NCBI RefSeq assembly: GCF_000332115.1
Contig: NC_020156.1
Location: 2,295,501-2,359,500 of the forward strand
Origin: Nonlabens dokdonensis DSW-6
GTDB lineage: Bacteria; Bacteroidota; Bacteroidia; Flavobacteriales; Flavobacteriaceae
Direction: 5' to 3'
DNA length: 64,000 nucleotides
Part shown: piece by piece, positions 1,127 through 63,137 of the stretch
Numbering within the stretch: the stretch's first letter is position 1
How the letters are laid out: the number at the start of each line of letters is the position of its first letter
Made by a program: the position numbers and the translations under genes
The notes under the pieces: model-generated
Database searches by the model: none
Told to the model about the DNA's origin: nothing
Seen by the model: the letters and a program-made list of their open reading frames with translations, nothing else

Positions 1127-1142
1127 CGCTTTCGCGAAAGCG
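1127..1142. repeat. 16-bp palindrome CGCTTTCGCGAAAGCG, intergenic copy
   Basis: Perfect copy ten bases after the stop of the QueD-like gene. First of sixteen core copies in the window. Confidence 0.95.
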
Positions 1143-1221
1143 AGATACCTACCAATATTGCTATTCAATTTAGAATTATTTCTTAGCATAGAATAATTTA
1201 ATCTGTATCTCTTTTATTCAC

Positions 1222-1229
1222 TATTTTTG
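1222..1229 (+). promoter_or_regulatory. -7 promoter element of the small helical protein gene
   Basis: TATTTTTG fits TAnnTTTG and lies 18 bases before the ATG at 1247, giving a short 5' leader. Confidence 0.6.
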
Positions 1230-1246
1230 CAGCAAATTAAATTATT

Positions 1247-1510
1247 ATGGCAAGTATTAGAGATCTGAAACAAGATATCAATTACGTATTAGGAGATATC
1301 ATAGAGGCTGCTTTGATCACACAGGCAGCAAACCCTGAAAAAACAGAAGCTTCTGAAAAGGTAGTAGACGATTCTATAGATACATTTGACGAGTTAATCG
1401 CTCGTGTTAACGATCGTAAAGTAGAAAATCGCAAAGCACACATTAAAGCAGTACGTGCTGATTTAGAAACTAAAGGAAAAGCACTTATAGAACGCGTTAA
1501 CGCTTTATAA
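1247..1510 (+). CDS. small conserved helical protein of unknown function
   Basis: An 87-aa, charged, cysteine-free protein with no signal peptide or membrane segment. The pattern suggests two or three amphipathic helices, with basic patches near the end (R-K-V-E-N-R-K-A-H, K-G-K-A). I recall similar short proteins as common hypotheticals in flavobacteria but cannot assign a function. It has its own -7 promoter. Its stop overlaps by six bases the stop of the convergent lipoprotein gene. Confidence 0.75.
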   Translation: MASIRDLKQDINYVLGDIIEAALITQAANPEKTEASEKVVDDSIDTFDELIARVNDRKVENRKAHIKAVRADLETKGKALIERVNAL

Positions 1511-2215
1511 GCTACTTTTATTCTTATCAATTAATGCAGACAATTGTTTCCCGTAAACAGTTGTCTGTATTTTTTTTGGCATTTTTTGAAATACGCTATC
1601 TAACAAAGCAGGATTTGCCTCGCTAGCTTCAGTTACTAAAATATAGGGTGCAACTTCCTTGTCCTTATGCAACTGTGCATAGTTGATGGCATACAGTACC
1701 TTTCTCTTCAGGTATTTATCGTACGCATTTTCTATAGAATCAGCTATTTCTGGAGTTCTAGTTTCATCAGTAAGTGACATACTTCTTTTTACGATGTTGG
1801 TATAGACTTTATTAAGCTTGTCATTATTCTCTTTAAAAACTTGGTAAATATCTTGATTTTTAGAACCAGTTATCACGGCATCTTTTTCAAATTGTTCAAG
1901 TGTGGAGTTGATGGTCATTAATGTGTCTTCTGCAAAAAATAGAAAACGATCATTGAACTCTCTACCATCCTTCACATCTAGATGAAGGTACAGCAACTCA
2001 GGTCCACTAATATCAGTTGTTAATGAATAATCAGAGTTGCCATTAAATTCTACAGAATCTACGTCAACTAAAACACTATCTTGGAAACGTTCTAAAAAAA
2101 TCTTTCCCACCTTAACCCCATCTATCGTTCCTGAAACTGAGAAGTTGCTGGAATTAGGTTCACTGCAAGATGCTACAGCAATTATGACGATAAGAAAGAA
2201 AAGTACTTTTTTCAT
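1505..2215 (-). CDS. DUF4369-like lipoprotein
   Basis: A 236-aa predicted lipoprotein. The signal peptide M-K-K-V-L-F-F-L-I-V-I-I-A ends in a lipobox A-S-C with the lipidated Cys around residue 17. The region after it (S-G-T-I-D-G-V-K-V-G-K-I-F-L-E-R) resembles the N-terminal domain that precedes thioredoxin domains in Bacteroidota (DUF4369). No C-x-x-C thioredoxin domain follows; the C-terminal half looks helical. I chose the ATG at 2215 over the one at 2245 because only the former places the signal peptide at the N-terminus. The function is unknown, perhaps an envelope protein related to the thiol-disulfide family. Confidence 0.75.
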   Translation of the reverse strand: MKKVLFFLIVIIAVASCSEPNSSNFSVSGTIDGVKVGKIFLERFQDSVLVDVDSVEFNGNSDYSLTTDISGPELLYLHLDVKDGREFNDRFLFFAEDTLMTINSTLEQFEKDAVITGSKNQDIYQVFKENNDKLNKVYTNIVKRSMSLTDETRTPEIADSIENAYDKYLKRKVLYAINYAQLHKDKEVAPYILVTEASEANPALLDSVFQKMPKKIQTTVYGKQLSALIDKNKSSL

Positions 2216-2275
2216 GGCTAAAATTTTACGGCTGCAAATATGCATTTTATCTTTTAATTTAAGAAGGTAAAATCC

Positions 2276-3664: not shown

Positions 3665-3680
3665 CGCTTTCGCGAAAGCG
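3665..3680. repeat. 16-bp palindrome, intergenic copy
   Basis: Perfect CGCTTTCGCGAAAGCG just downstream of the stop (3694) of the hydrolase-like gene and upstream of the DUF819 gene. Confidence 0.95.
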
Positions 3681-5309: not shown

Positions 5310-5912
5310 TCACTTAACCACCTTTCTAAAAGTCAAATTGATACGTAAATCTATTTCCCTTTTTGTTTTTGCAATCTGGTGTTTATAGGTATGTTGAGTT
5401 TGATCTTTCATTAATAACAAACTGCCGTTTTCTAATAAAAATTTAAATTTCCAGTCTTTATTTTCATTATGTCTTAAATGAAAAAACCGATCTTGACCTA
5501 GGCTTACAGAAGCAATAGTGGGATTTTGTCCTAACTCTGGTTCGTTGTCTGCATGCCAGCCGTTAGAATCTTGACCGGTGCGGTACTGGTTAAGTAAACA
5601 GACGTTGAACTCAGCTCCTGCTGCTTTTTCTACGTCGGCTTTGATTTGTGCTAGAGTTTCTGTCCACGGCAAAGCTTTGAATTTGATACCGCTATAACCG
5701 TAATCTAGTCCTTCGTCGCCATATAACTGTGTGAGCCTTGGTTCGTTATGTGTTTTACCAAATAGTTTGATTTCGTTTTGTCTCCATGGGGTTTCTTCTA
5801 ACAAAGTGTCTTTTAAATGTTCCGCTTTCGCGAAAGCGTAAAAAGAACCATCATATTCTACAGTAGCGTCTGGTATCTTAGGAAAAGAATCTGGAAATAA
5901 CTTACTATGCAT
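5310..5912 (-). CDS. AlkB-like 2-oxoglutarate/Fe(II) dioxygenase
   Basis: A 200-aa cytosolic enzyme of the AlkB family, which reverses N-alkylation damage in DNA or RNA by oxidative demethylation. The metal site is complete: H120 and D122 in N-G-W-H-A-D-N-E, and H178 in Y-K-H-Q-I. The 2-oxoglutarate arginines are R190 and R196 in R-I-N-L-T-F-R. The L-N-Q-Y-R-T-G-Q-D segment matches ALKBH2/3-like proteins. The ATG at 5912 is preferred over a TTG at 5942. Residues 26-30 (A-F-A-K-A) are encoded by the 16-bp palindrome, before the conserved core. Confidence 0.9.
   Translation of the reverse strand: MHSKLFPDSFPKIPDATVEYDGSFYAFAKAEHLKDTLLEETPWRQNEIKLFGKTHNEPRLTQLYGDEGLDYGYSGIKFKALPWTETLAQIKADVEKAAGAEFNVCLLNQYRTGQDSNGWHADNEPELGQNPTIASVSLGQDRFFHLRHNENKDWKFKFLLENGSLLLMKDQTQHTYKHQIAKTKREIDLRINLTFRKVVK
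5823..5838. repeat. 16-bp palindrome inside the AlkB-like gene
   Basis: Perfect copy, read in frame as A-F-A-K-A in the variable N-terminal part of the protein. Confidence 0.95.
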
Positions 5913-5987
5913 GCATATCAAAATATCGTGTACTGCTAGCAATATACTATGATTGGGGCGTATCTTGCATCTAATTAAAATTTATTT

Positions 5988-8559: not shown

Positions 8560-10009
8560 AATTTTGATTTGTAAAAGTAGCAGCTAGCAACAAACCTAAA
8601 AAGGTTACAAAACCGTTGAGTAATAAAATAAAGAAACCAAATTCAAATCCATAACGACTCGCTAGACTACTTATTCCAAAAGCAATAAATGGTGATAGAA
8701 TCGCAATAACCGGAGTTATTTTATGGTTTACTTGAAGTTTTGTTAGAATTCCAAAACTGAACAACCCTAACAGCGGTCCATAAGTATAACCAGCAAAAAC
8801 AAATAATTTATTGATCACGCTAGCATCCTTGATCAAATACTCAAAACTTACAATCACAAGTATCAATGTTAGAGAAAATCCTACATGGACTAGTTTTCTA
8901 ATCCAGCGTTGCTTTTTCTCTTCATAGTTTTGCTCTAATCTCAAAATGTCTACAGAGAATGACGTTGTTAAGGAAGTCAGCGCGCTGTCTGCACTGGAAT
9001 AGGCTGCTGCTACTAATCCGAGAATAAAAACCAGTCCTATCCCTATTCCTAGATTTCCATCTAAAGCGATGGCCGCAAATAATTTGTCTTTTGTGGCTGT
9101 TAATTGTTCCGCTTTCGCGAAAGCGGTAAGTAAAACACCTAATCCTAAAAATATAAGATTTACAAAGGTCAATACGATCGTAAACCAAAACATGTTTTTT
9201 TGAGCATCGCCAAGACTGCGACAAGTCAGGTTTTTTTGCATCATATCTTGATCCAGACCAGTCATTACGATAGCGATAAAAGCACCAGCAAAAAACTGTT
9301 TAAAGAAAAACTCTTTGGCTTTCCAATCATCAAAAAAGAAGATCTGGGACAATTCGCTATCAGAAATGAAACCAGTTATCTCGCCAATACCATTAAGGTT
9401 CAAACTGTCAGAAATGTAATAAATCGCTACACTTACAGCAATTAACATGAATAAAGTCTGTAAAGTATCGGTCCAGACTATGGTTTTTATTCCGGACTTG
9501 AATGTGTATAACCAAATCAGAATAACAGTAAAAGTTACCGTTTGCCAAAACTCAACGCCCATACTTTCAAAAACAAATTCTTGTAAGACACCAGCAACCA
9601 GATACAATCTAAAACTGGCACCTACCATACGAGAAAGTATAAAAAAACTAGAACCTGTAAATTGTGCAGCACTGCCATATCTGTCGTTGAGGTAAGAATA
9701 AATAGACGTCAGGTTCATTTTATAATATAGCGGTAAAAGTACCGTACCTATTACCAGGTAACCGACTATGTAACCTAGAACTACTTGAAAATAATTCATC
9801 GCTCCTTCTTCCACAGCGCCAGGAACAGAGATAAAAGTCACTCCACTAAGTGATGCTCCTATCATACCAAAGGCTACAATAAACCAAGGGGAAGATCTAT
9901 TACCTCTAAAAAAAGTTGCATTATCGCTTTTGCGACCTACAATAAAAGAAATTGCTACAAGAACCGCAAAATAGCAAGCAATGGTAATGAGAATTTGGGT
10001 AGAAGTCAC
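8534..10009 (-). CDS. sodium:solute symporter (SSS family)
   Basis: A 491-aa inner-membrane protein with about 13 hydrophobic helices, typical of the SSSF family that couples Na+ entry to uptake of sugars, amino acids or other solutes. Supporting motifs are G-A-S-L-S-G-V-T-F-I-S-V-P-G near the N-terminus and A-A-A-Y-S-S-A-D-S-A-L-T-S-L-T in the middle (Na+-site Ser/Thr). It starts with GTG at 10009; no nearer ATG keeps the first helix. The loop text L-T-A-F-A-K-A-E-Q carries the 16-bp palindrome. The substrate cannot be predicted. Confidence 0.9.
   Translation of the reverse strand: MTSTQILITIACYFAVLVAISFIVGRKSDNATFFRGNRSSPWFIVAFGMIGASLSGVTFISVPGAVEEGAMNYFQVVLGYIVGYLVIGTVLLPLYYKMNLTSIYSYLNDRYGSAAQFTGSSFFILSRMVGASFRLYLVAGVLQEFVFESMGVEFWQTVTFTVILIWLYTFKSGIKTIVWTDTLQTLFMLIAVSVAIYYISDSLNLNGIGEITGFISDSELSQIFFFDDWKAKEFFFKQFFAGAFIAIVMTGLDQDMMQKNLTCRSLGDAQKNMFWFTIVLTFVNLIFLGLGVLLTAFAKAEQLTATKDKLFAAIALDGNLGIGIGLVFILGLVAAAYSSADSALTSLTTSFSVDILRLEQNYEEKKQRWIRKLVHVGFSLTLILVIVSFEYLIKDASVINKLFVFAGYTYGPLLGLFSFGILTKLQVNHKITPVIAILSPFIAFGISSLASRYGFEFGFFILLLNGFVTFLGLLLAATFTNQNSNTDLYQA
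9110..9125. repeat. 16-bp palindrome inside the symporter gene
   Basis: Perfect copy, read in frame as A-F-A-K-A at the end of a membrane helix or in the loop after it. Confidence 0.95.
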
Positions 10010-12941: not shown

Positions 12942-12957
12942 CGCTTTCGCGAAAGCG
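12942..12957. repeat. 16-bp palindrome, intergenic copy
   Basis: Perfect copy between folE (3' end at 13056) and the cysS start codon. Confidence 0.95.
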
Positions 12958-18641: not shown

Positions 18642-18657
18642 CGCTTTCGCGAAAGCG
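18642..18657. repeat. 16-bp palindrome, convergent intergenic copy
   Basis: Perfect copy between the minus-strand terminator and the 3' end of the FadL-like gene. Confidence 0.95.
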
Positions 18658-23431: not shown

Positions 23432-23447
23432 CGCTTTCGCGAAAGCG
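23432..23447. repeat. 16-bp palindrome, convergent intergenic copy
   Basis: Perfect copy between the rpsT terminator and the terminator of the opposing beta-barrel gene. Confidence 0.95.
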
Positions 23448-28764: not shown

Positions 28765-30549
28765 ATGACGCTTTTTCAACAACTAGAAATCGCTACTAAA
28801 AATGCGGTAACCTCTATTTTTTCTGTAACACTGGAAAATGTAGAAATTACGCTTACGCGAAAGGATCAAAACGGAGACTTCACCATCATGGTGTTTCCTA
28901 TGTTGCGTCATATCAAGGGTAATCCTGCAGTTATTGGTGAAAAAATTGGTACTTATTTAAAGGAAAACACCGATTTGATTACCGATATAGAAGTTATTAA
29001 AGGATTCTTGAATGTAAAAGTCTCCTCAAAAGCTTTCTTGGCAGATTTTAACCTCATGCTTAGTGATGAAAATTACGGTACTAAAGGGCAAGACAGTTCA
29101 CAACCAGGAGTAATGGTAGAGTACAGCTCGCCTAATACCAACAAACCTCTTCACCTCGGACACGTTAGAAATAATTTATTAGGTTACTCGGTAGCTAATA
29201 TTATTGAAGCAACTGGTCGTAAAGTCTACAAAACCCAAATCATAAACGATCGAGGAATTCATATTTGTAAATCTATGCTGGCATGGGAACGTTACGGCAA
29301 TGGAGAAACTCCAGCGACTACTGGCTTGAAAGGTGATAAACTCGTTGGGAATTATTATGTAAAGTTTGATCAAGAGTACAAAAAAGAAATAGCACAACTC
29401 ATAGCAGAGGGAAAAACAGAAGATGAAGCAAAAAAGCAAGCTCCTTCACTAATTGCTGCTCAACAAATGCTTCAAAAATGGGAGCAAGGAGATGAAGAAG
29501 TAGTAGCGCTTTGGAAAAAAATGAATGGTTGGGTTTATGATGGTTTTGACATTACTTATAAAAATTTAGGAGTCAATTTTGACAGCCTATATTATGAGAG
29601 TAATACTTATCTATTAGGAAAAGATGTAGTTCAACAAGGATTAGACAAAGGTGTTTTTGAAAAAGATCCTGATGGTTCTGTATGGATAGATCTTACAGAA
29701 GATGGACTAGATCGCAAAATTGTATTGCGTAGTGATGGAACAGCTGTATATATGACGCAAGATATAGGAACAGCTATACAGCGAGTAAAAGATCATCATA
29801 TTAACTCTATGGTATATACAGTAGGAAATGAGCAAGACTACCACTTTAAAGTATTGTTTTTGATTCTTAAAAAATTAGGGTTTGATTGGGCAGAAAACTT
29901 ATACCACCTAAGTTATGGTATGGTAGAATTGCCATCAGGTAAAATGAAATCTCGAGAAGGAACAGTCGTAGATGCAGATGAGTTGATGGAAGAGATGACA
30001 GCAACCGCTAAAGAAATTGCACAAGAACAAGGAAAACTAGAAGGACTTTCTGACTCAGAAAAAGAAAATCTGTATAAGATGATAGGTCTAGGAGCTTTAA
30101 AATACTTTATGCTTAAAGTAGATCCTAAAAAAAGCATGATGTTTGATCCAGAAGAGTCGGTAGATTTTCAAGGGAATACAGGACCATTTATTCAATACAC
30201 GCACGCCCGTATAAAATCTATTCTCAAAAAATCAGGGTTTGATACTAATGCACTTAAAAGCGCTGTGAATTTAGATTTGACCGATAAGGATATTGCGGTA
30301 ATCAAGTCATTACAACAATTTCCTGATGTGATTCAAACTGCTGCAGATAAATACAGTCCAGCACTTGTTGCAAACTATGTTTACGAACTAGTAAAAGAAT
30401 TCAACTCCTTTTATCAAAACGTTCCAAAAATTGTAGAAGAAGAAAATGCCGATTTAAAACAGTTCCGTTTGTTGTTATGTTACAAGACAGCTGCAGTAGT
30501 AAAAAGTGCTTGTTCTTTAATGGGAATTGAGGTTCCCGAACAGATGTAG
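28765..30549 (+). CDS. argS: arginyl-tRNA synthetase
   Basis: A 594-aa class Ia synthetase charging tRNA-Arg. The N-terminal additional domain is present. The HIGH motif is P-L-H-L-G-H-V-R-N-N (about 130), preceded by E-Y-S-S-P-N-T-N-K. The KMSKS region reads S-G-K-M-K-S-R-E-G-T, a normal Bacteroidota variant. The C-terminal DALR anticodon-binding domain ends I-E-V-P-E-Q-M. Bases 28851-28863 hold a one-mismatch version of the 16-bp palindrome core, read L-T-R-K. Confidence 0.97.
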   Translation: MTLFQQLEIATKNAVTSIFSVTLENVEITLTRKDQNGDFTIMVFPMLRHIKGNPAVIGEKIGTYLKENTDLITDIEVIKGFLNVKVSSKAFLADFNLMLSDENYGTKGQDSSQPGVMVEYSSPNTNKPLHLGHVRNNLLGYSVANIIEATGRKVYKTQIINDRGIHICKSMLAWERYGNGETPATTGLKGDKLVGNYYVKFDQEYKKEIAQLIAEGKTEDEAKKQAPSLIAAQQMLQKWEQGDEEVVALWKKMNGWVYDGFDITYKNLGVNFDSLYYESNTYLLGKDVVQQGLDKGVFEKDPDGSVWIDLTEDGLDRKIVLRSDGTAVYMTQDIGTAIQRVKDHHINSMVYTVGNEQDYHFKVLFLILKKLGFDWAENLYHLSYGMVELPSGKMKSREGTVVDADELMEEMTATAKEIAQEQGKLEGLSDSEKENLYKMIGLGALKYFMLKVDPKKSMMFDPEESVDFQGNTGPFIQYTHARIKSILKKSGFDTNALKSAVNLDLTDKDIAVIKSLQQFPDVIQTAADKYSPALVANYVYELVKEFNSFYQNVPKIVEEENADLKQFRLLLCYKTAAVVKSACSLMGIEVPEQM

Positions 30550-34524: not shown

Positions 34525-35358
34525 CTAGCTTTTTAATCTCCAAGCTACAAATCTAGACTCCTTATTTCCAGTAGTCATTTCTACGACTCTGGTTTCGGCA
34601 CCTAATTTTTCTAGTTGTTTCAATGGCTTTTTTAGGTTTTGCTTTCGCGAAAGCAAACACGTAAACCATCCTACTTGACTTTTAAAAGCTACAGATTCTT
34701 TAATCATTCTTTTTATGAATAAGGCTTCTCCACCATTGCACCAAAGTTCGTGCGCGTGACCAGCAAAATTACGACGCTCTTCATAAGTGCCTAATTTTCT
34801 TTGTTTATTCATATTAGCCTTTACTGCTTCTTCTTCACTACCATAAAACGGCGGATTACACATCGTGAAATCAAAGCTCTCGCCTTCACGTATCACATTT
34901 TTGAACAAATTTCTTTTATCTATTTGATGGCGTATTTCTATCGCGTCATTTTTTGAAGTGTTCTTTTTTGCAAACGCAACGCTTTCATCTGCGACGTCAC
35001 AGCCTACCATTTTCCAGTCGTAAATGTTATTTCCTAAGATAGGATAAATGGCGCTTGCACCACAACCTATATCAAGTCCGTTTTTTTCACCTTTACCTAC
35101 TAGATCAGAAATATGATGAATATAATCTGCCCGTCCTGGAATAGGTGGATACAGAGAACCTTCCGGTAATCGCCAGTATTTAACTTTATAGTGGTGTTTT
35201 AATAAAGCAGTATTAAATTCAAGAATAGAAGCCGCGTCACCAAAGTCTATTGTCACAGATCCTGTTGGACTGTTGATAAGGTATTTTTCTAATTCTGGAT
35301 GTGTAGCGGTCAGTTTCTCAAAGTCATAACCGTACCTGTGTATGTTTCTTAAATGCAT
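34525..35358 (-). CDS. rlmF: 23S rRNA (adenine-1618-N6)-methyltransferase
   Basis: A 277-aa SAM-dependent enzyme methylating A1618 of 23S rRNA. It starts M-H-L-R-N-I-H-R-Y-G-Y-D-F, then has the SAM motif G-L-D-I-G-C-G-A-S-A-I-Y-P and the N6-adenine motif N-P-P-F with Y-G-S (about 185-191), all family signatures. Length is normal. Near the C-terminus L-S-R-K-Q is encoded by a TGCTTTCGCGAAAGCA version of the palindrome. Confidence 0.94.
   Translation of the reverse strand: MHLRNIHRYGYDFEKLTATHPELEKYLINSPTGSVTIDFGDAASILEFNTALLKHHYKVKYWRLPEGSLYPPIPGRADYIHHISDLVGKGEKNGLDIGCGASAIYPILGNNIYDWKMVGCDVADESVAFAKKNTSKNDAIEIRHQIDKRNLFKNVIREGESFDFTMCNPPFYGSEEEAVKANMNKQRKLGTYEERRNFAGHAHELWCNGGEALFIKRMIKESVAFKSQVGWFTCLLSRKQNLKKPLKQLEKLGAETRVVEMTTGNKESRFVAWRLKS
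34640..34655. repeat. palindrome variant TGCTTTCGCGAAAGCA inside rlmF
   Basis: The 14-bp core is exact and both outer bases changed together (C/G to T/A), so the palindrome is kept. It is read as L-S-R-K-Q. Confidence 0.9.
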
Positions 35359-37958: not shown

Positions 37959-40900
37959 TTGAAAATCTTATTTTTACAAAAATTTAAGAGATTGAAACAT
38001 CTATTCCTTTGGCTTCTTTTGGTTATGGGTTCCGCTTTCGCGAAAGCGCAATCAGTAAACACAGCTTACCTATGCCTTGCAAATGGAGATGTTGTCCTGG
38101 CCGATTTGAGCACGTGTAGCTCTACAGTAGTTGCTACAAATAATCAATCGATGTTTGATATTGCCGAAGGTGATACTGCAGACACTCTTTATGGAATTCG
38201 TAATCAAGACTTGTATTTAATTGATTTGAACACTGGTAATTTTTCATTGTTGGGAAATCTAACCATATTGGGTTATTCTGGTAATTTTAGAGTTGACTCT
38301 CTAGTAAAAGAGCAAAATGGTATCTTATTAGGTGTAAATAACGAGATCGGTGGAGAGTTATTTAGAATTGATGTCTCTGCTTTAACAGCTACAGGTTTAG
38401 GGTCTACAGGATTTAGAAGCGCAGGAGATTTGAGTTTTTTTCAAGGAGATTTATATCTAAGTGCTAGAAATAGTGAGCTAGTCAATATTAATATTAATAA
38501 TCCACCAGCGTCCTTTTTAGTAGGAAGTATGGCAAGCGGTGGTTTTTCAAGCGTTTTTGGAGTAGTAACTATTATTACTGCGAATGCCTGTGCAACTAAC
38601 CCTACGATCGAACTGGTAGCGACTGGTGGGCGCACTACAAAATTTGTAAATACAGCAAATGGTGCAACCTCCAATAACTGTACTAATCTTACTAATTCTG
38701 ATATTTTTGGCGCAGCTGAGGTCACCTCAGACATTATTTGCCCAATCGATCTCGAGATATTTGATGATAATCAAATGACTCCTGATCCTACTCCTTATTG
38801 TATTCAAGCAAACACGTTACTTAACGCAAATCCTGATCCTATAACTCCGCAGAACAATTATCTTTATGAATGGAGAGTCTTAGGTAATCCTACTATTATT
38901 GCAACAAGTAGCACATTACCTTTAATGATCAACTCTACGACAACTTATGAATGTACGGTAATCGATACTGGTATAGCAGCGCCAAATAACTTTGCGGTAG
39001 ATCAAATCACTATTACGGTAAATCCTGCTCCCGTATGGACTCCTTTAGCTCCAGTGTTTGCCTATCAATCCTACACATTGCCTTCCATTTCTGGATCTAA
39101 TATTCCTGTAAATAGTGCTTATTATACTGGTCCAAGAGGTGCTGGAATGCAGTTTAATCCTGGAGATATTGTTACCGAAGCAGATTTTACTTCAAATCCT
39201 GTGACTCTTTTTGTTTATGGTGATGAGACTAATGGTTGTGAAGTCGTTGGTCAATTTGATTTAGAATTTATTGATGTTCAAGTGACTATCAATCCAGGTG
39301 GTATTCAGGAAATTTGTGAAGGCGATACATTAACGCTTACCGCAACACCTAATCCGTCAATGCCTATAGGTACTTATACTTATAATTGGACTGATTCTCA
39401 AAATACGGTATATCCCGATACTGCATCCATAACATTTACCGCAACTGTGGATACGACACTTTCAGTTACCGTAAATGATTCTGGTGTTGAAAATGGAACT
39501 GATATGGGCTTTGATATGACAGACTTTATTGTCTTGAGGCCTGTAGATTTGGCTGGTTTAGTAAATCAGAATGCAACTAGCACATATACATTTCCATCTA
39601 TTTTTGGTACTGGATTGACAGGAGGCGAGCGATATTATACCCAGCCTAATGGAATGGGAACTGCGTATGATCCAGGAGATATTGTTAGTCCGGCAGACTT
39701 TAGTTCATTACCAGTTCAGCTATATACTTATGATAACAATGGCAGCTGTGATGACGAACAAAGCTTTTTTCTTGATTTTGATATACCTGTGGCACCTACA
39801 TTAAATGTTTCTAGCTCTACAAATATCATTTGTGCTGGAGAAACAGTACTGATGACTGCGACTGCTATTCCATCCACACCTACAGGCAGTTATACATATG
39901 AATGGCGAGAAGTAGGAACTACTGCTGTTTTATCGGTAACTAATCAGTTGAGTATCGCACCGACAAGTTCAACATCATATGAATGTACCGTCACAGATAC
40001 AGGACTGACGTCAAATAATACAGCAGCAGCTTCAATAACTATTACAGTAGAAGCACAACCACTAATTGATCCACTTGTAGATCAAATAGCCTTTGGTACT
40101 TTTACATTTCCAGTTATAACAGGTACAGATCTTACTGGTGCAGAAAGTTATTATACACAACCTGCAGGAATGGGAACCTCTTATAATGCTGGTGATACTG
40201 TGACCGCAGCAAGTTTTACAACTCTACCAGTATTTATATTTATCTATGATTCTAATGGTAATTGTAATGAGCAAGAAGGTTTTTTATTAGACTTTGATAC
40301 ACCACCGCCTTTATCATTAACTCTTAGAGCTCAGCCGCAAACGATTTGTGAAAGAGAGAATACGACTTTAACAGCAACTCCTAATCCTGCAATTCCTCAA
40401 GGTTCTTATACTTTTGAATGGATAGAACAAGCAACGGGAATTTTTATATCTAATTCTGATACAGTACAAGTTAATCCATCTGTAACTTCTACTTATGAAT
40501 GTACAGTTACAGATACTGGCATATCTACCGGTAATACTGTTACAGCAAGCATAATAATTACAGTAGAAACAGCACCGCAGCTAGCACCAATTGCAGATCA
40601 AAGCATTTTCAATTCCTTTACTTTTCCGACTATTATTGGTACTAATTTGAGTGGTAATGAGAGGTACTATACAGTACCAGATGGTCAAGGAACTTCTTTT
40701 AATGCAGGTGATAATATACTTTTTTCAGACTTTGATTCTTATCCTATCACAATTTATGTTTACGATGTGAATGCGATAGGATGTCAAGATCAAGTAAGTT
40801 TTAACCTCACGATAGAAGAGCTTGAATTATTTATTATTCCTCAATATACGACGCCTAATAGTGATGGTTTTCATGATTTTTGGCAAATTGAGGTGCTTCA

Positions 40901-41125: not shown

Positions 41126-41141
41126 CGCTTTCGCGAAAGCG
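41126..41141. repeat. 16-bp palindrome, intergenic copy
   Basis: Perfect copy 27 bases after the stop of the second T9SS giant. Confidence 0.95.
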
Positions 41142-46325: not shown

Positions 46326-46341
46326 CGCTTTCGCGAAAGCG
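46326..46341. repeat. 16-bp palindrome, intergenic copy
   Basis: Perfect copy 16 bases after the hemJ stop codon. Confidence 0.95.
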
Positions 46342-50056: not shown

Positions 50057-50776
50057 TTACGGGAGTAACATCAAGATAGCCATAAGAATCATAATAGCGT
50101 TTTCTATAAAAGTGGCTTCTGTCATTGGTAATTTAAGAGCAGTTCCTAAACACGCACATTGAATAGACTTCTTATCAAGTAATGTTTTAGTAACTCCTAA
50201 GGTCGTGATTCCCAAAATCACAAGAGTAGCAATTAACGCAATTTCTATTTCAAAACGCATCAAAAACATCAACCCTAGAGCCGTCTCGAGAAAAGGATAC
50301 AGCCACCCATAAATAGGTAAAACCTTAGCCAGCGGATCGTACATTCTGAACGATTCGGGAAAACCTTTTAAATCCAACATTTTGAAAAAGCTGAATACGA
50401 TGTAAAACATTCCCATAAAGTCCAGCATAGCTTCATCCCAATATTCACGCTGATAGTTCAATAAAATGGTGGCCACAACGATGTACCCCAGTATTAAAAA
50501 CAATGGTTTTAACTGTTCTAGCTTAGATTTTTTAGGTTCCGCTTTCGCGAAAGCGGAATTATCAAAAACATTCTTTTTTTCTTGAATATCGTACTTGTCT
50601 GGCAACGCTTTTTGAAAGGTTTCTATTGCGATATGAGAGTTCATAGAAATCACCGCTTGCTCGTTTTCTAAAGTAACTGTTGCTTTCAAGACATCTGGAA
50701 CTGCCTGAAGCCTTTTCTCCACATCAGTGCGACAACCGTTGCACGTCATTCCAGATATAGTATAAGTTTGTTTCAT
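50057..50776 (-). CDS. HMA domain fused to a MauE/DoxX-like membrane domain
   Basis: 239 aa. Residues 1-65 are a heavy-metal-associated domain (M-T-C-N-G-C, Cys12 and Cys15, binding Cu+ or Zn2+). A linker of about 20 residues contains A-F-A-K-A from the palindrome, and about four to five helices of the MauE/DoxX type (95-239) follow, with a C-A-C motif in the last third (I-Q-C-A-C-L-G). It is the last gene of a seven-gene metal cluster, and its ATG overlaps the preceding stop by one base. It may pass metal ions or electrons at the inner membrane. Confidence 0.85.
   Translation of the reverse strand: MKQTYTISGMTCNGCRTDVEKRLQAVPDVLKATVTLENEQAVISMNSHIAIETFQKALPDKYDIQEKKNVFDNSAFAKAEPKKSKLEQLKPLFLILGYIVVATILLNYQREYWDEAMLDFMGMFYIVFSFFKMLDLKGFPESFRMYDPLAKVLPIYGWLYPFLETALGLMFLMRFEIEIALIATLVILGITTLGVTKTLLDKKSIQCACLGTALKLPMTEATFIENAIMILMAILMLLP
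50540..50555. repeat. 16-bp palindrome in the HMA-to-membrane linker
   Basis: Perfect copy, read A-F-A-K-A exactly in the variable linker between two domains. Confidence 0.95.
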
Positions 50777-54354: not shown

Positions 54355-55119
54355 TTAAAAGGTGTATCTAGTTCCTAAAAACACGGAGTAATTCAAGGCA
54401 CGATCAGCATCGATTTCTTGAACTAAAGGTAGTTGTACGGCAAGATCAAACGTAATGTTTTTAAGCGCGTATTGTACTCCTTGCGAATACAACAACTGGT
54501 ACCAGTCACGTTCATGCAACCAGACACTATTATACTCAAAGTAAAGGTTGAGCTGTTTATTAGGATATTGCGGTTTTAAAAGCGGTAACCCAAAACCTAA
54601 TTTAGCTCTAAACTCGTCAAGAGTTCCATTAGGCATTTCGTTATAACCTATTTCTCCAGAAATACCGTATTTGAGGGTTTCCAGTCCAGCTACTACACCG
54701 TAGTATCCAGCATATTTACCTGTAGATATATCCATTACATCAATCTCGTCTCCTGTGGGAAGAGTTAGCAGGGTTTTTGCCACCATACGGAATGTTTTAC
54801 CAGTTCCATCTTTACGATAAAACTGATATTTCCCCATGATTTTAATATCGGCTAGACCACTGCCATCTACATCGCTTAGATTGTAGCTAGTATATGGAAT
54901 ATGTAAGGCTAATAGTATATTATTAGTAGGTAAATAGTGCAGCATGACAGGAGTGTAAACGATCGTTCCACGTTCTGTGTTTCTGATTTCAGTTAATGTT
55001 TTCATTGTGAAGCTTCCGCCTCCTAGCATGATAGGTTTATCTGCTGTTATGGGTGGTCCTTGTGAGTACGCTTTCGCGAAAGCGAAAACAATACCAACCA
55101 CAGTAATTAAATATTTCAT
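54355..55119 (-). CDS. outer-membrane beta-barrel, metal-cluster transporter candidate
   Basis: A 254-aa barrel with signal peptide M-K-Y-L-I-T-V-V-G-I-V-F-A-F-A-K-A-Y-S, in which the palindrome encodes A-F-A-K-A near the cleavage site. Strand-like text with Gly/Tyr/Leu turns runs to a terminal F-L-G-T-R-Y-T-F typical of BAM-dependent barrels. The family is not certain; it resembles small transporter barrels (phenol-degradation MetA-type). Its position as second gene of the metal cluster suggests a role in metal or siderophore passage. Confidence 0.75.
   Translation of the reverse strand: MKYLITVVGIVFAFAKAYSQGPPITADKPIMLGGGSFTMKTLTEIRNTERGTIVYTPVMLHYLPTNNILLALHIPYTSYNLSDVDGSGLADIKIMGKYQFYRKDGTGKTFRMVAKTLLTLPTGDEIDVMDISTGKYAGYYGVVAGLETLKYGISGEIGYNEMPNGTLDEFRAKLGFGLPLLKPQYPNKQLNLYFEYNSVWLHERDWYQLLYSQGVQYALKNITFDLAVQLPLVQEIDADRALNYSVFLGTRYTF
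55069..55084. repeat. 16-bp palindrome in a signal peptide
   Basis: Perfect copy, read A-F-A-K-A in the last part of the signal peptide. Confidence 0.95.
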
Positions 55120-55136
55120 TGTTGTGTAAATTGAAG

Positions 55137-56082: not shown

Positions 56083-58575
56083 TTACAATCGAGCAATAAG
56101 TCTTAGGTTAAAAACTCGTGGTGTTAAACGCACAGGAACTGCATATTGAGCGCTAGAAGCTACGTCTCTTACCCAAAGATTTGAAATTTGATTTTGACGA
56201 TCAAAGATGTTGAAAATTTGAGCTCCTATGGACAACTCTTCAAAATTTTCTAGCCAGCTGCCTGCTCTTGCTTTTTTCTTATCGTCCACAAGAACATACT
56301 GAATACCTAGGTCTGACCTGAAATAGTCTGATAATCTAAACTGAAAGTCATAAGGGTCTGCATAGCTAGGAGAGCCACCAGGCAATCCAGAGCTGTAAAC
56401 CATATTGATGTAAGCTTTTAAATTAGGAATATTAGGAACATAATCCTGAAACAAGAAAGCAACTTTTAATCGTTGATCTGTAGGGCGTGCTATAAAACCA
56501 CGATCATCAAGGTTTTCTTCTGTTCTTAAATAACCTAATGAAATCCAGCTTTCTGTACCTTTTATAAATTCTCCTGCGAGTCGCACATCGAGCCCATAGG
56601 CAAAGGCTTCGGCATTGTTATTTGCTCGATACCTAATTCTTACATTCTCTAAGGTATAGGTATTTACATCAGTTAAATCTTTGTAGTAAGCCTCACTAGT
56701 CAATTTAAACGGTCTTTTTTCACCATCTTTTGTGGTCCAGTTAAAACTCCAGTCGTTACCTAGCACAAAATGAACAGATTTCTGTGCCTTGACATCTGGT
56801 ATAACCGTTCCTTGCTGGTTTCTCAACTCACGATAGAGTGGTGGCTGGTAATACAGTCCTGTGGAGAATCTAAAGAGCATATTAGTATTCTTCCAGTAAG
56901 GCTTTATCGCCACTTGTCCACGTGGTGAAAACACCGTTTGTGTGGTGCTTTGAATATCTTTTCCATCCACATTCCACGTGTGAGAACGCACACCTGCATT
57001 CCAGTACACTTCATGATCACCTAAATATCCACGACTGCTGTATTGAGCAAAAGCTTGCAATCTCGTTACTTGAACATCATTATCCGCTCTAGCAGATTCA
57101 AAGGATTCTAAAGGAGCAACATAAGAAAAATAAGGCTGGTCATTTGCAGGTACAGATGGTGGTCTTACATTAAAACCTGCGCTGTCTATAACCGTATATT
57201 CTCTCAAGCGATCTCGTATATCTTCTGAGTTAAACTTGATGCCCCAGTCCAACTGATCGTTTTCTTTTTTGTCTAGATTTAATTCTAAAGTTCCTTTATG
57301 TTCTAGACTTACAATTAATGCATCGAGATCATTACGACCATGGTCTAACTCACTTCCTATTCCACGAGTAAAATCAACTTCACCTAGATCATCACCACCT
57401 ATATTTGTGTTAGGTCGTCCTATTCTATAACGTCCCAAAATATCAAAATGCTCCTGCTCTTTAGTGTGGTAAACGCTTGAAATGAATCTCAAATTCAATG
57501 CTTCATTTACATCGTAGCTCGCTTTTACAGCTCCAAAGTAGGTTTCATATTGATCGTCTTCTCCACCGTCGTAATTAATAATTAGTGCTTGTGCATCGTC
57601 TACGGTACCAAAGTTAGTTTGTGAGGTAAGTGGTTCAAATTCGTAACTGTTGATGGCAATATTTCCTAAGAAACTTAATTCAAATTTTGGACTTACTTCA
57701 TAGGTTAAATAGGTTTGAGCATCTACAAATACTGGTCTTGTGATCGCCTCTGTCTCTCTAGAATTTACAAATAAACTGTTGTTTCTGTATCGCACACCTA
57801 GTATTCCTGTTGCGGCTTTCGCGAAAGCGGTACCTTCTACAAATGCGTTAACACCTAAAAAGCTTGCGTCTACTCCTGCGCCAAATTCTGTAGGACGACG
57901 GTAATTGATATCTAAAACAGAGCTCAATTTATCTCCATATTTAGATTGAAATCCACCAGCACTGAAATCAACACTGCGCACCAGATCTGAATTTACAATA
58001 CTCAATCCTTCTTGCTGACCGCTGCGTATGAGAAATGGTCTATACACTTCGATTTCATTGATGTAAACTAGGTTTTCGTCAAAATTACCACCGCGCACGG
58101 TGTATTGAGTACTCAATTCATTGTTAGAAGAAACGCCAGGAAGTGATTTTAATAAATTCTCTACTCCAGGTTGGGCGCCAGGTATAGTCTTTATGACCGT
58201 AGGGCTGATATTAATAATTCCTGCAAACTCTCTTGTTTTAGTGTTGCTGATGTAAACCTCTACTATTTGCTCAATTACTGTACTTAAGACTGGATTAAAT
58301 TCAAAAATGGCTCTACCGTCTAATTCAAAGTTTTGTCTCGCTGTTTTATAAGAAATGGAACTAAAAACAATAGTAATTTTTTGATTTGCTGGCACTACTA
58401 GTCTGTAAAATCCAGTGTCATCTGTTGCGGTTCCTATAGTTGTTCCAGCAACCTTTATACTCGCGTTAGGTATAGGTTGATTATTTTCATTTAAAATAAT
58501 TCCTTGAATGACAGCATTTTGTGCGTGTAAGAATCCGGTTATAAGTAACGCGATGAAAAGTAAGAAGTTCTTCAA
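56083..58575 (-). CDS. TonB-dependent outer-membrane receptor
   Basis: An 830-aa receptor. The signal peptide M-K-N-F-L-L-F-I-A-L-L-I-T-G-F-L-H-A is followed by a carboxypeptidase-D regulatory-like domain (about 20-105: V-I-Q-G-I-I-L-N-E-N-N-Q-P-I-P-N-A-S-I-K-V), a plug domain (about 120-235: G-V-E-N-L-L-K-S-L-P-G-V, Y-T-V-R-G-G-N-F-D-E-N) and a 22-strand barrel. It ends in an aromatic-poor F-N-L-R-L-I-A-R-L. The start codon is TTG. The palindrome-like core at 57815 encodes A-F-A-K-A in the barrel. The M23 gene 9 bases upstream shares the transcript; substrate unknown. Confidence 0.92.
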   Translation of the reverse strand: MKNFLLFIALLITGFLHAQNAVIQGIILNENNQPIPNASIKVAGTTIGTATDDTGFYRLVVPANQKITIVFSSISYKTARQNFELDGRAIFEFNPVLSTVIEQIVEVYISNTKTREFAGIINISPTVIKTIPGAQPGVENLLKSLPGVSSNNELSTQYTVRGGNFDENLVYINEIEVYRPFLIRSGQQEGLSIVNSDLVRSVDFSAGGFQSKYGDKLSSVLDINYRRPTEFGAGVDASFLGVNAFVEGTAFAKAATGILGVRYRNNSLFVNSRETEAITRPVFVDAQTYLTYEVSPKFELSFLGNIAINSYEFEPLTSQTNFGTVDDAQALIINYDGGEDDQYETYFGAVKASYDVNEALNLRFISSVYHTKEQEHFDILGRYRIGRPNTNIGGDDLGEVDFTRGIGSELDHGRNDLDALIVSLEHKGTLELNLDKKENDQLDWGIKFNSEDIRDRLREYTVIDSAGFNVRPPSVPANDQPYFSYVAPLESFESARADNDVQVTRLQAFAQYSSRGYLGDHEVYWNAGVRSHTWNVDGKDIQSTTQTVFSPRGQVAIKPYWKNTNMLFRFSTGLYYQPPLYRELRNQQGTVIPDVKAQKSVHFVLGNDWSFNWTTKDGEKRPFKLTSEAYYKDLTDVNTYTLENVRIRYRANNNAEAFAYGLDVRLAGEFIKGTESWISLGYLRTEENLDDRGFIARPTDQRLKVAFLFQDYVPNIPNLKAYINMVYSSGLPGGSPSYADPYDFQFRLSDYFRSDLGIQYVLVDDKKKARAGSWLENFEELSIGAQIFNIFDRQNQISNLWVRDVASSAQYAVPVRLTPRVFNLRLIARL
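57815..57828. repeat. 14-bp palindrome core inside the TonB receptor gene
   Basis: GCTTTCGCGAAAGC exact, with one outer base changed (G instead of C on the left). Read in frame A-F-A-K-A. Confidence 0.9.
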
Positions 58576-58584
58576 ATTGTAGTA

Positions 58585-60294
58585 TTAGCTTTTACGAAAA
58601 AATGTAGCTTCAAATGTAGTACTATTTCCTACGTTATCGGTAACGATTACTTTGAGCTCATTTTCTGTATCAGTAACGACTCCATCGTCAAAATCGTGTG
58701 TAAGTATTCCAGTTTTATAATCGTATTCCATTAAAATGAATTTACCGTTCACTGTTGCTCGATATGCATCAACTCCAGTATCAGCATCTGCTATTTTGAG
58801 TTTTAGTGTTTTATTTTTAGAAATCCACTGTTTGTTCTTGAAATTAATAGGTTTTATCGTAGGATCAACATCGTCTTTACTGATGGCATAAGTGCCTAAT
58901 GTACGAGTGCTCGCGCTGAGAATGTTTCCTTTTCTTCTCGTATTGACATGATAAACCGCGCCCCAATCTGTCACGCGACCTATGTAGTATTGTTTTAAAT
59001 TGTCGTCCTTTTTTGCACTGGCGTCGTAAGTTATGATCATATTCTTATGTAAAGGAACAATATCACTATGAACTTTTATAGTATCTGAGCTTTGCTGCAA
59101 ATCCAAAAAGACACTTTCATACAAAGCTCCTTTAGGAATCATTAAAGTGTAAGGACCACTACTATTTCTATAAGTCATGTTATGGTCTACAAAGGTAAGC
59201 TGGTCGCCTTGATTAAGAACTATTGAGTCTGGTGCAGCATCGTTCTTAATACTCATATTAATTTGCACTTTATTTTCTTTATAGTCAGCTATTTCAATAC
59301 GATATAAATGTGTTGTACCAGGATCAACTATCTGTAATACTCCATTATTCACATGGTCTTCATAAAGACTAAGCGGGCTATTATTAGGGATATAAAGTCT
59401 AGAAATACGACTTTTAGTTTTCTTGAAATGTTCATAATCGATCAATTGATTGATATGTCTGGATTCACTGAAAGCGTATCGATCAAAGGTCATTTCAAAG
59501 TTTTTAGTCCCGTTAAAAAAGCTAGCAATATGAAAAGTTCCATTTTGATTATTGGCACCGTTTTGTTGATCACTTGTATTCACGCCTATTCCTATGTCAC
59601 CATAAGCACTAAATTCTTCTACTTTGAATTTCCCACCTTTTAAAGGGATAAGACGTAGTAACTGGGCTTCATGTTTACCGTTTATCGTGGAAGTTTTGCT
59701 TAGTGGAAATGCTTTAATTTGTTTTACCAGAGGTCTCTTAGTATCTGGGATTTCAATTCCCATCATCATAGGGTTTAAAGGTCTTGCAGCACTATCTCTT
59801 ATTTCAAAATGTAAATGCGGTCCACCGCTACCACCAGAATTACCACTATAAGCAACCACCTCACCTTGATCGACTCTTAATTCTAGATCTGTAGGGTAGA
59901 GCTGGATGGAGTAACTTTCTTTTGCGTATTGTTTTTTCTTTAAATAAGCCTCTATGCGAGGGGAGAACTTTTTTAAATGGGCATAAACAGTCGTGTAGCC
60001 GTTAGGATGCGTAATGTAAAGCGCTTTCCCGTACCCATATCTTTCAATTTTTATACGGCTCACATAACCAGAAGCACTGGCATAAACTTTTGCACCTGTG
60101 CGCTGATTTGTTTTAATATCTAGACCACTGTGAAAATGATTAGACCTTAATTCTCCAAAAGTACCACTCAATTTCAAATCTATATCAAGCGGATTAACAA
60201 AGTAATCTTGAGGAAGATTTTTAATAGTTTGGCTTTCGCCAAAGCGAGAAATCAATAAAAAAAACGCCAGAAAACAAAATAAGTGTCTTATCAT
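58585..60294 (-). CDS. M23 family metallopeptidase (LytM/peptidoglycan type)
   Basis: A 569-aa exported peptidase. After a signal peptide (M-I-R-H-L-F-C-F-L-A-F-F-L-L-I-S) comes the M23 domain (about 40-180): zinc ligands in H-F-H-S-G-L-D-I-K (H-x-x-x-D) and in P-H-L-H-F-E-I-R-D. The C-terminal 380 residues are beta-rich repeats with D-x-G-V/N-S texts (Ig-like). M23 enzymes cut peptidoglycan cross-links. It lies upstream of a TonB receptor in one operon. A one-mismatch palindrome (60231-60246) encodes R-F-G-E-S after the signal peptide. Confidence 0.9.
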   Translation of the reverse strand: MIRHLFCFLAFFLLISRFGESQTIKNLPQDYFVNPLDIDLKLSGTFGELRSNHFHSGLDIKTNQRTGAKVYASASGYVSRIKIERYGYGKALYITHPNGYTTVYAHLKKFSPRIEAYLKKKQYAKESYSIQLYPTDLELRVDQGEVVAYSGNSGGSGGPHLHFEIRDSAARPLNPMMMGIEIPDTKRPLVKQIKAFPLSKTSTINGKHEAQLLRLIPLKGGKFKVEEFSAYGDIGIGVNTSDQQNGANNQNGTFHIASFFNGTKNFEMTFDRYAFSESRHINQLIDYEHFKKTKSRISRLYIPNNSPLSLYEDHVNNGVLQIVDPGTTHLYRIEIADYKENKVQINMSIKNDAAPDSIVLNQGDQLTFVDHNMTYRNSSGPYTLMIPKGALYESVFLDLQQSSDTIKVHSDIVPLHKNMIITYDASAKKDDNLKQYYIGRVTDWGAVYHVNTRRKGNILSASTRTLGTYAISKDDVDPTIKPINFKNKQWISKNKTLKLKIADADTGVDAYRATVNGKFILMEYDYKTGILTHDFDDGVVTDTENELKVIVTDNVGNSTTFEATFFRKS

Positions 60295-61188: not shown

Positions 61189-61358
61189 CTACCTACACTT
61201 GTTTCATTTTTTGGTGAACTCAACACATAATTCTTTAAAAAAGGTGAGTCGTGGTTGTAAAAGCAAGCCGAACGTATGAGTCGGATCCTTGATCAGCCAG
61301 TTAGCCTTAAACTTTATTTAAGGAGTTCATACAAAACCCAAACTCGTGTAGGTTTTTT
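61189..61358 (+). ncRNA. ssrS: 6S RNA (flavobacterial type)
   Basis: About 165-nt RNA between zapA and rny. Closing stem ACCTACAC (61191) with GTGTAGGT (61346), inner stem TGAACTC (61215) with GAGTTCA (61323), and a run of T at the end. Position after zapA and the long rod with internal bulges fit 6S RNA, which binds RNA polymerase holoenzyme. Based on structure and location. Confidence 0.78.
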
Positions 61359-61373
61359 TATATACAATAACCA

Positions 61374-62948
61374 ATGGAATCAATGACAATTATAGCCGCA
61401 GTAGTGGCGCTCATAATAGGTCTAGCAATAGGCTTTTTTATAGCAAAATCAATAGTAGAAAAAGGAAAAGCGTCCAGCCTTATTGCAAACGCAAAGAAAG
61501 AAGCAGAGAGCATTCTCAAAGAAGCCGAAGTCAAAGGAGATAAAATTACCAGCGAGAAGCTTTATAGAGGTAAGGAAAAGTTTATGGATCTTAAATCTAA
61601 GCATGAGAAAGAAATCATGGCTAGAGAACAAAAAATGAAAGATTCTGAGAAACGAACAAAAGATAAAGAATCTGCTGTATCTAATGAGCTTTCAAAAAAC
61701 AAAAAATTATCGCAATCTTTAGAGAGCAAACTTAAAGACGTAGAAGGGAAAAGAGAATCTGTCTACAAACGTATGGAAGAAGTGGACAAGCTACATGAAT
61801 CCCAAGTAAAACAGCTTGAAGTCATAAGTGGTATGTCTGGTGAAGATGCAAAAAAGCAACTGGTAGAATCTTTAAAAGATAAAGCCAAAACAGAGGCAAT
61901 GGGAATTATTCAAACGACCATTGAAGAAGCAAAACTTACAGCCCAACAAGAAGCCCGCAAAGTAATTATCAATACGATCCAGCGTATAGGAACAGAAGAA
62001 GCAGTAGAAAACTGTGTATCTGTATTTAATCTAGAAAGCGATGATGTTAAAGGTAGAATTATAGGTCGTGAAGGACGTAATATTAGGGCTATTGAAGCTG
62101 CCACAGGCGTAGAGATTATTGTGGACGATACTCCAGATGCAATTATTCTTTCTTGTTTTGATAGTGTGCGTAGAGAAGTAGCGCGTTTATCATTACATAA
62201 ATTAGTTACTGACGGTCGTATTCACCCAGCACGTATTGAAGAAGTTGTAGCCAAAACTAGAAAGCAAATCGATCAAGAAATTGCAGAGGTAGGAAAGCGC
62301 ACTGTTATCGATTTAGGAATTCATGGTTTACATCCAGAATTGATTAAAATGGTAGGTCGTATGAAATACCGTTCTTCTTATGGACAGAATTTATTACAGC
62401 ACAGTAGAGAAGTAGCAAAGCTTTGTGGAACAATGGCTTCTGAGTTAGGACTTAATCCTAAGTTAGCAAAAAGGGCAGGACTACTCCACGATATTGGTAA
62501 AGTACCAGAAACGGAAGATGAAACGCCGCACGCAATACTAGGTATGAAGCTGGCTGAAAAGCACGGTGAAAAACCAGAAGTATGTAATGCAATAGGAGCA
62601 CACCACGACGAGATAGAAATGACCTCTTTACTATCTCCTATCATACAGGTTTGTGATGCGATAAGCGGTGCACGTCCAGGAGCAAGAAGACAAGTACTCG
62701 ATTCATATATTCAGCGATTAAAAGATTTAGAAGATATCGCTTTTGGATTTAAAGGAGTAGAAAAGGCATATGCGATACAAGCAGGTCGTGAGTTGCGTGT
62801 CATGGTAGAAAGTGAAAAGATTAATGATGATCGTGCTGCACAATTATCATTTGAGATTTCACAAAAAATACAAACAGATATGACCTATCCTGGTCAAGTG
62901 AAAGTTACCGTAATTAGAGAAACACGAGCGGTTAATATTGCTAAGTAA
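61374..62948 (+). CDS. rny: ribonuclease Y
   Basis: A 524-aa endoribonuclease for mRNA turnover. An N-terminal membrane helix (about 5-25), long coiled coil (25-200), KH domain (about 210-275: [13 protein letters not shown]) and HD domain with H-D-I-G-K (about 372) follow in the family order. Length is normal. It lies 15 bases after the 6S RNA gene; shared transcription is possible. Confidence 0.97.
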
Positions 62949-62974
62949 TAGCATCCTAAATACAATTTACAAAC

Positions 62975-63009
62975 GCTCCTTTAAACATTTTGTTTAAGGG
63001 AGTTTTTCT
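62975..63009 (+). terminator. intrinsic terminator of rny
   Basis: CTCCTTTAAAC-ATTTT-GTTTAAGGGAG followed by TTTTT. Confidence 0.85.
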
Positions 63010-63121
63010 TTTACGCAATTTTTAGTAAAAGAAATACAACCTGCTTTGCTATTACATTTACTAGCGATTAGGATTAAATAATTTTAGTTTTAATAATTAT
63101 CTTTCTGTTTTTTATAGAGTT

Positions 63122-63137
63122 AGCTTTCGCGAAAGCG
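63122..63137. repeat. palindrome core, intergenic copy
   Basis: GCTTTCGCGAAAGC exact (63123-63136), left outer base changed to A. It lies between rny and the next secreted protein gene. Confidence 0.9.

Follow-up and report, generated by a model that had tools for sequence, protein, structure and literature searches.

An iterated palindrome of Nonlabens and a second flavobacterial genus as a possible signal of DNA self-recognition

Introduction

The described DNA signals that come closest to the repeated palindrome reported here are the DNA uptake sequences (DUS) and uptake signal sequences (USS) of Neisseriaceae and Pasteurellaceae, the highly iterated palindrome HIP1 and alternate HIPs of cyanobacteria, the parS and Noc sites, and the Chi site of E. 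coli. The palindrome, GCTTTCGCGAAAGC (below, the motif), is a perfect one of 14 bp. It occurs in 16 exact copies in a 64,000-nucleotide stretch of the chromosome of Nonlabens dokdonensis DSW-6, a member of the Flavobacteriaceae (NC_020156.1, positions 2,295,501 to 2,359,500; "the window" means this whole stretch). Our leading reading, held tentatively, is that the motif is a DNA self-recognition signal, most likely a DUS/USS-like uptake sequence that would serve a pilus-independent form of competence and be read by a dimeric protein.

The motif resembles DUS and USS in its copy number (hundreds to about two thousand in those systems), in evolving in place, in its bias toward tolerant sites and intergenic DNA, in its limited density, and in having a core with flanking AT tracts. 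In the passages of the literature that treat these traits, DUS and USS are described as evolving gradually in place (PMC1939737) and as having AT-tract flanks and being scarce in new segments (PMC7811141), and their spacing as matching conversion fragments (PMC2397512). The sources differ on where new sites come from: the relevant part of PMC2397512 ascribes many of them to recombination, unlike that of PMC1939737. The motif differs from DUS and USS in being a perfect palindrome of 14-16 bp with symmetric flanks, in that its one-off variants are much rarer, and in that 19 of 23 motif-rich genomes have no type IV pilus platform. It is also sparser, with one copy per 4.6 kb as opposed to about 1 kb in a passage of PMC7811141.

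Like HIP1 and the alternate HIPs, the motif is a highly iterated palindrome that is found within and between genes throughout a clade. Unlike HIP1, it is longer, has phased flanks, deviates internally and not terminally, and neither of two methyltransferase families is found in all its carriers. The parS and Noc sites are likewise palindromes of 14-16 bp with TTTC and GAAA half-sites; the half-site spacing of their consensus differs by two bases from that of the motif. In contrast to those sites, the motif is present in hundreds of uniformly placed copies, and a second ParB is missing from 20 of the 23 rich genomes. We consider the motif to be a signal of the iterated kind and do not claim that it belongs to the DUS, HIP or parS family. 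In searches of open-access PubMed Central we found no description of the motif, nor of any uptake sequence from these genera; the inner 10-mer TTTCGCGAAA occurs in 10 papers, which are off-topic by title, and neither longer form occurs in any.

Results and discussion

Excess of the motif over chance

All 16 copies that the original prediction listed for the window are present, and 100 dinucleotide shuffles produced none. The excess holds beyond the window. The complete genome (G000, one contig of 3,914,632 bp) contains 857 copies, about one per 4.6 kb, and the reversed control gives 0. In 293 open reading frames (ORFs) of this genome there are 46 copies, whereas 100 shuffles of synonymous codons yielded 0.2 copies on average and at most 2. 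When the motif is masked for training, Markov models of order 2-5 predict fewer than 0.001 copies where 81 were observed; an order-5 model trained with the motif kept in predicts 0.51. These codon-shuffle and Markov controls rule out composition or codon use as the cause of the motif. All 30 of the AFAKA peptides encoded by the 293 ORFs are encoded by the motif (30 of the 46 genic sites lie in the frame that reads AFAKA), indicating that the constraint is on DNA and not on protein and that the peptide exists because of the DNA.

Distribution among genomes

Every Nonlabens genome that we examined is rich in the motif (23 of 23, with 288-857 copies). Among 58 relatives compared with G000, the 22 other Nonlabens carry 288-787 copies, one of 13 family members from other genera has copies (six), and none of 23 genomes from the same order has any. 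We also drew 397 genomes of the family from a larger group, four of which belong to Nonlabens and were excluded. Two of the remaining 393 are rich (G234, 408 copies; G250, 857 copies), 74 have 1-19 copies, and 317 have none. In a sample of 395 genomes from the phylum, 21 besides G000 have 1-6 copies.

The genus of G250 is uniformly rich (18 of 18 genomes, 369-905 copies). This second genus is probably Dokdonia, because a Dokdonia metagenome-assembled genome (MAG), G824, matches the count of G838 (610) and groups with G250 in a tree. A search with a single extended version of the motif, which is selective and misses some carriers, matched 16 records, 15 from four Nonlabens species or isolates and one from a Dokdonia MAG. 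Among these loci, one from N. xylanidelens matches sampled G000 sequence with 85% identity over 1010 bp. A tree built on ParB and ComEC of 20 genomes places G234 with two Dokdonia-type genomes with a support of 100, and Nonlabens groups together with a support of 100. The union of all carriers has a support of only 38, so a single origin of the motif is compatible with the tree and not demonstrated by it.

Footprint and strictness

The core is flanked symmetrically by phased, A-rich sequence, and the whole footprint spans about 50 bp. At 84 sites in G000, with both orientations pooled, the base that adjoins the core on the right is G in a fraction of 0.90, A is enriched at +3 and +4 (0.56 and 0.79) and from +10 to +13 (0.75 at +10), with +4 and +10 to +13 A-rich on both sides, and G is depleted to about +25. 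Each half carries 1.86 bits of information at +1, with 0.75 at +4 and 0.63 at +10, and the signal fades by about +18. Left and right halves have the same mean score (6.6 bits each), with a correlation of 0.23 between them. Equal halves of this kind fit a putative reader that is itself symmetric and dimeric. Flanks like these are also seen in G250 (25 sites) and, in weaker form, in G234 (11 sites).

The motif is unusually strict. In 377 kb of unmasked G000 sequence, excluding a large region without sites that is described below, there are 83 perfect copies, seven with one mismatch and three with two. Over-representation falls 594-fold from zero to one mismatch; passages of PMC1939737 put the same fall at 92-fold for the uptake sequence of Haemophilus influenzae and 82-fold for that of Neisseria gonorrhoeae. 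A fall this steep suggests that losses are rare or quickly repaired. Variants are commoner elsewhere, with 25 perfect to six one-mismatch copies in G250 and 11 to six in G234.

The outer base pair gives no support to one part of the original prediction, that the palindrome was copied as a unit. The copy at 34641..34654 does have the changed outer bases that had been pointed out, T...A in place of C...G, and remains a palindrome. The outer pair at the 84 sites is C/G at 70, A/G at six, C/A at three, T/A at two, T/G at two and G/G at one. One-sided changes (12) therefore outnumber two-sided ones (two), and the T...A copy is no evidence for copying as a palindrome. Moreover, sites in the window change in place by substitution, as detailed below.

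The positions of mismatches bear on the possibility that the motif is a HIP1-like site which an orphan DNA methyltransferase creates and maintains together with methyl-directed mismatch repair. The likeness to HIP1 drawn in the original prediction holds in part: the motif is an iterated palindrome that is genome-wide, constrained at the level of DNA, and both genic and intergenic. It does not extend to the length (14-16 bp plus flanks), the density, the flank structure or the positions of deviation. Of the seven one-mismatch sites in G000, six deviate internally and one at the outermost base, whereas HIP1, in the relevant part of PMC4390886, deviates most at its ends. The paper also includes in the HIP1 model a limit on density set by repair distance, which speaks for such a mechanism. 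TCGCGA shows no excess outside the motif (19 observed, 29-36 expected), which speaks against it, as do the methyltransferases considered below. We regard a HIP1-like origin as improbable.

Placement and spacing

The motif is 4.5-fold denser outside called ORFs of at least 90 aa (0.67 per kb) than inside them (0.15 per kb), based on 35 and 46 sites in 364 kb, with simple ORF calls and with the masked bases of one stretch (L023) counted as outside. The sites in G000 are also evenly spaced. The coefficient of variation (CV) over 98 gaps, with a single gap of 91 kb excluded, is 0.42, whereas 10,000 random placements never fell below 0.70; six gaps are shorter than 2 kb where 35 are expected. Evenness persists against a null that favors intergenic DNA 4.5-fold: the CV over 63 gaps is 0.48 as opposed to 0.90, none of 5000 simulations is as even, and one gap of the 63 is shorter than 1 kb where 14.3 are expected. 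Seventeen pieces of 20 kb around the chromosome, chosen to exclude the masked L023 and five pieces over the 91-kb region, have 3-6 sites each (mean 4.5, variance/mean 0.17), and sites are neither concentrated near the origin nor depleted near the terminus. Evenness is present outside G000 and is mostly weaker there. The CV is 0.68 in G003 (60 gaps) and 0.35 in G018 (21 gaps), 0.62 in the Dokdonia MAG (37 gaps), 0.44 in G250 (nine gaps), 0.63 in G234 (nine gaps), and 0.74 in G825 (99 gaps), where 2 of 5000 simulations are as even. The best reading of these data is that carriers keep the motif at a set density.

Even spacing and symmetry are what a chromosome-organizing site could be expected to have, and this is the close rival of an uptake signal. 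A homodimeric nucleoid-associated protein bound every 4-5 kb would arrange or partition the chromosome, and selection would keep one site per few kb. The perfect palindrome, the equal strength of the flanks on both sides, the strongly even spacing and the uniform density around the chromosome all favor this account. Several observations do not. The genome tolerates a stretch of 91 kb without sites, copy number is not tied to genome size in the second genus (899 copies in 3.3 Mb, 903 in 5.5 Mb), and there is no candidate protein, and a second ParB paralogue is absent from 20 of the 23 rich genomes. It is the large hole, together with the independence of copy number from genome size, that tilts us to uptake over chromosome organization, which we consider a real possibility and, on balance, doubtful.

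The 91-kb hole (C1:131,678-222,907) is the only large one among the first 100 sites of G000. It is filled mostly with giant ORFs that resemble nonribosomal peptide synthetases and polyketide synthases, with near-repeated modules (L010-L014; judged by eye). Also by eye, a transposase-like ORF is near one end and a serine-recombinase-like ORF is just past the other. We suspect that this stretch, the single region of its kind that was looked at, was acquired recently.

Gain, loss and travel of sites

Sites in the window are gained and lost in place by substitution. When they were compared with five aligned relatives, 13 of 22 comparisons retained the exact motif and nine differed, with near-constant length and no insertion of the size of the motif. 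The losses include single substitutions at 34641, 41127 and 55070. For the four more distant relatives, the motif was kept in 7 of 15 comparisons, in blocks with identities of 68-80%; the chance that 14 free bases survive at 79% identity is about 4% (0.79 to the 14th power).

The motif has apparently also moved between genera. We looked at nine of the 74 sparse genomes from other genera, picked for clustered copies. Twelve of 15 stretches (L029-L043), from eight of the nine genomes, have sites in common and are homologous to each other at 72-97%; the other three, L032, L038 and L043, lack this homology. We infer that such islands in motif-poor genera came from carrier hosts. The islands look mobile, and the only one whose ORFs were read, L030, contains genes that by eye resemble those for copper efflux. 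At two island sites, L033 and L036 each hold a block of other sequence (about 24 and about 80 bp, respectively) in the homologous place. These blocks stand at the motif places of L041 and L029, and the piece in L033 recalls a dispersed repeat. We read both as what is probably other sequence sitting in the site and not an empty site.

These comparisons also address a copied mobile or structural repeat, such as a repetitive extragenic palindrome, a miniature inverted-repeat transposable element or a terminator hairpin. The palindrome itself, its intergenic excess and the block differences in L033 and L036 would be in keeping with such a repeat. However, gain and loss of orthologous Nonlabens sites leave the length almost unchanged in the 22 comparisons, and the flanks have no shared insert boundary. 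The polarity is wrong for a terminator: TTTT is found within 15 bases downstream at 5 of 83 sites and AAAA at 25 of 83. We give this explanation almost no weight.

Two complete Nonlabens phage records contain neither the motif nor TCGCGA in 71 kb; they are 98% alike over 32 kb and were counted as one. Eleven virus contigs from IMG/VR (including L234-L239) have between two and seven copies in 12-40 kb, and their motif density and flanks resemble those of the host; they were chosen for matching the motif, and the set is biased accordingly. The contig with seven copies looks Mu-like by eye.

Absence from one phage type, together with one copy per 4.6 kb, would suit a Chi-like recombination signal that stops a nuclease of the AddAB or RecBCD type on self DNA. 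The Chi site of Escherichia coli has a similar density and is 8 bp long, asymmetric and strand-polar. In contrast, the motif is 14-16 bp long with flank preferences on both sides, and because it is a palindrome it has no strand polarity. We consider a Chi-like role very improbable.

Candidate machinery

None of the candidate functions that we searched for separates carriers from non-carriers. The panel comprised 43 genomes: 20 Nonlabens, three other rich genomes and 20 poor ones. The original prediction had suggested a binding site for a ParB/Noc-like protein. This does not agree with the panel, in which ParB_N is present in all 43 genomes, motif-rich or not, or with the uniform placement of sites around the chromosome. 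Extra ParB copies occur in three Nonlabens; no second ParB is found in the other 17 of 20 or in any of the three other rich genomes, and 16 of the 20 poor genomes also have a single one. A second ParB is not common to the carriers, and a ParB/Noc-like reader is not supported.

The C5 methyltransferase family PF00145 occurs in 12 of the 23 rich genomes, leaving 11 without it, and in 13 of the 20 poor ones. The N6/N4 family PF01555 has some match in 13 of the 23 rich genomes and in 9 of the 20 poor ones; 8 of 20 Nonlabens and both second-genus genomes searched have none. Not being common to carriers, both families are ruled out as the shared cause, which also counts against a HIP1-like site. Only 4 of the 23 rich genomes have the pilus or type II secretion platform PF00482, as do 3 of the 20 poor ones, and we rejected classical pilus uptake because 19 rich genomes lack it. 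ComEC is nearly universal (23 of 23 rich, 19 of 20 poor).

A possible uptake signal

How might such a motif be used? We postulate that the signal consists of the core CGCTTTCGCGAAAGCG plus symmetric, A/T-phased flanks, about 50 bp in total, and that a dimeric DNA-binding protein reads it. During natural transformation, fragments bearing the motif would be preferentially taken up or recombined. Molecular drive or selection could then carry sites into tolerant parts of the chromosomal DNA that is shared, and accumulation would stop once most fragments of a few kb already held a site. The machinery might be of the pilus-independent type described in Riemerella. In the parts of PMC8459023 that deal with R. 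anatipestifer, the transformation genes encode ComEC, DprA, RecA, ComF, a periplasmic HHH protein and a DUF1343 protein, as well as a predicted surface protein and a predicted outer-membrane protein that has a domain often found in TonB-dependent receptors. The outer-membrane and surface pair is described there as widely distributed in Flavobacteriaceae, and no pilus gene is named in those parts. R. columbina favors its own DNA, according to a passage of PMC7965970, whose authors examined words of at most 10 bp.

We rank a DUS-like signal first because the motif evolves in place, occupies tolerant sites, is evenly spaced with a lower limit on the gaps and has phased A/T flanks around its core, all of which match the DUS pattern. 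The absence of sites from the 91-kb hole and from the phage pair, and the presence of ComEC in all 23 rich genomes, also count in its favor. Several points weigh against it. The palindrome and its extreme strictness are unlike known uptake sequences, the one-mismatch variants that abound among DUS and USS are scarce here, PF00482 is missing from 19 of the 23 rich genomes, and a chromosome-organizing protein explains symmetry and evenness as well. Our confidence in an uptake signal therefore stays somewhat short of even, since competence in these genera is itself only presumed and the points just given count against it.

If the motif does act in uptake, we can speculate further. It could be the first palindromic uptake sequence, read by a dimeric surface machine of the TonB-receptor type that marine flavobacteria would have in place of type IV pili, and it could tag Nonlabens and Dokdonia DNA, including islands that have moved; related genera might perhaps have CTTT-N-AAAG dialects of their own, such as CTTTGSCAAAG in G067. 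We consider this larger picture rather unlikely.

A perfect palindrome at about one copy per 4.6 kb, in hundreds of copies in two genera, would imply a strict, putative DNA reader that has not yet been described. An uptake role would mean a code for self DNA in a family about whose uptake machine little is known. The alternatives, if true, would mean a novel system for folding the chromosome or a novel process directed by methylation. The motif may also be usable as a tag, in that clusters in motif-poor genomes mark islands plausibly derived from these hosts, and its evenness bears on how iterated sequences reach a fixed density.

Copies in the window and other repeats

The window divides as originally described, with eight copies between ORFs and eight inside them when ORFs of at least 150 aa are used. 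Two of the start positions given originally (57815 and 63123) were right, and the other 14 of 16 were one base too low (e.g., 1128 and not 1127).

The intergenic copies begin with exact matches at 1128..1141 and, between two minus-strand ORFs, at 3666..3679. They continue at 12943..12956, which adjoins cysS (11420-12907, minus strand), at 18643..18656, after a protein sorted by the type B signal of the type IX secretion system (T9SS), and at 23433..23446, downstream of a tRNA-Glu gene (22987-23059). The remaining three are at 41127..41140, before an OmpH-like ORF (41275-41802, plus strand), at 46327..46340 and at 63123..63136.

Of the copies within ORFs, all but one are in minus-strand frames. 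These are 5824..5837 in a 2OG-Fe(II) oxygenase (5310-5942), 9111..9124 in a sodium/solute symporter (8534-10009), 31980..31993 in a TPR protein (31081-32334), 34641..34654 in an RNA methyltransferase (34525-35358), 50541..50554 in a MauE/HMA-domain protein (50057-50776), 55070..55083 in ORF 54355-55155, and 57815..57828 in a CarbopepD_reg/Plug-domain protein (56083-58575). The plus-strand copy, 38034..38047, is near the start of a T9SS type B protein (37959-41099). T9SS type B sorting domains are present among the window proteins. The copy at 31980 is kept in all five relatives compared. That at 34641 is kept in two of five and is one substitution away in the other three, and that at 55070 is one substitution away in the close relative G010.

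Two relatives of the motif had been named in the window. A mismatch scan identified one of them, GCTTTCGCCAAAGC at 60232..60245, as a true one-mismatch relative with its start displaced by one base from the 60231 first given. The other, in argS (28851..28864), has two mismatches and not one.

We also screened 20 motif-poor genera for other dialects, using 20 kb of each. Only G067, of the same family, gave an iterated odd palindrome, in a screen of limited power that detected five of six motif-rich positive-control stretches and missed L046, which has two copies. The G067 palindrome is of the type AACTTTGSCAAAGTT and is present as 24 exact 11-mers and 26 one-mismatch copies in 140 kb (L273, L281-L286), often in pairs 18-37 bp apart. 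A second batch of ten genomes, two of whose contigs were too short, gave eight usable stretches with no CTTT/AAAG palindrome among the top words listed. Other repeated words were found in L294, L295 and L297, for example AACAACGTGTAT 12 times in L295 (G089) and GCACAAGTAAAA eight times in L297 (G175), each in at most 20 kb. G062 has an excess of TTTTCCAAAA that could reflect codon use, and the excess words in G029, G034, G063 and others are hairpins, tandem runs or too few to judge. For example, L268 (G034) has two paired ACCTCACAGG hairpins about 1 kb apart (12555-12583 and 13561-13589). In L046 (G234), eight ACAACGGTCT repeats, all on one strand and unrelated to the motif, lie within 8 kb (10672-18713). 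Lastly, the window contains a tandem run of AAACTT hexamers (35387-35450) upstream of a DEAD-box helicase ORF, and this run matches many places in Nonlabens.

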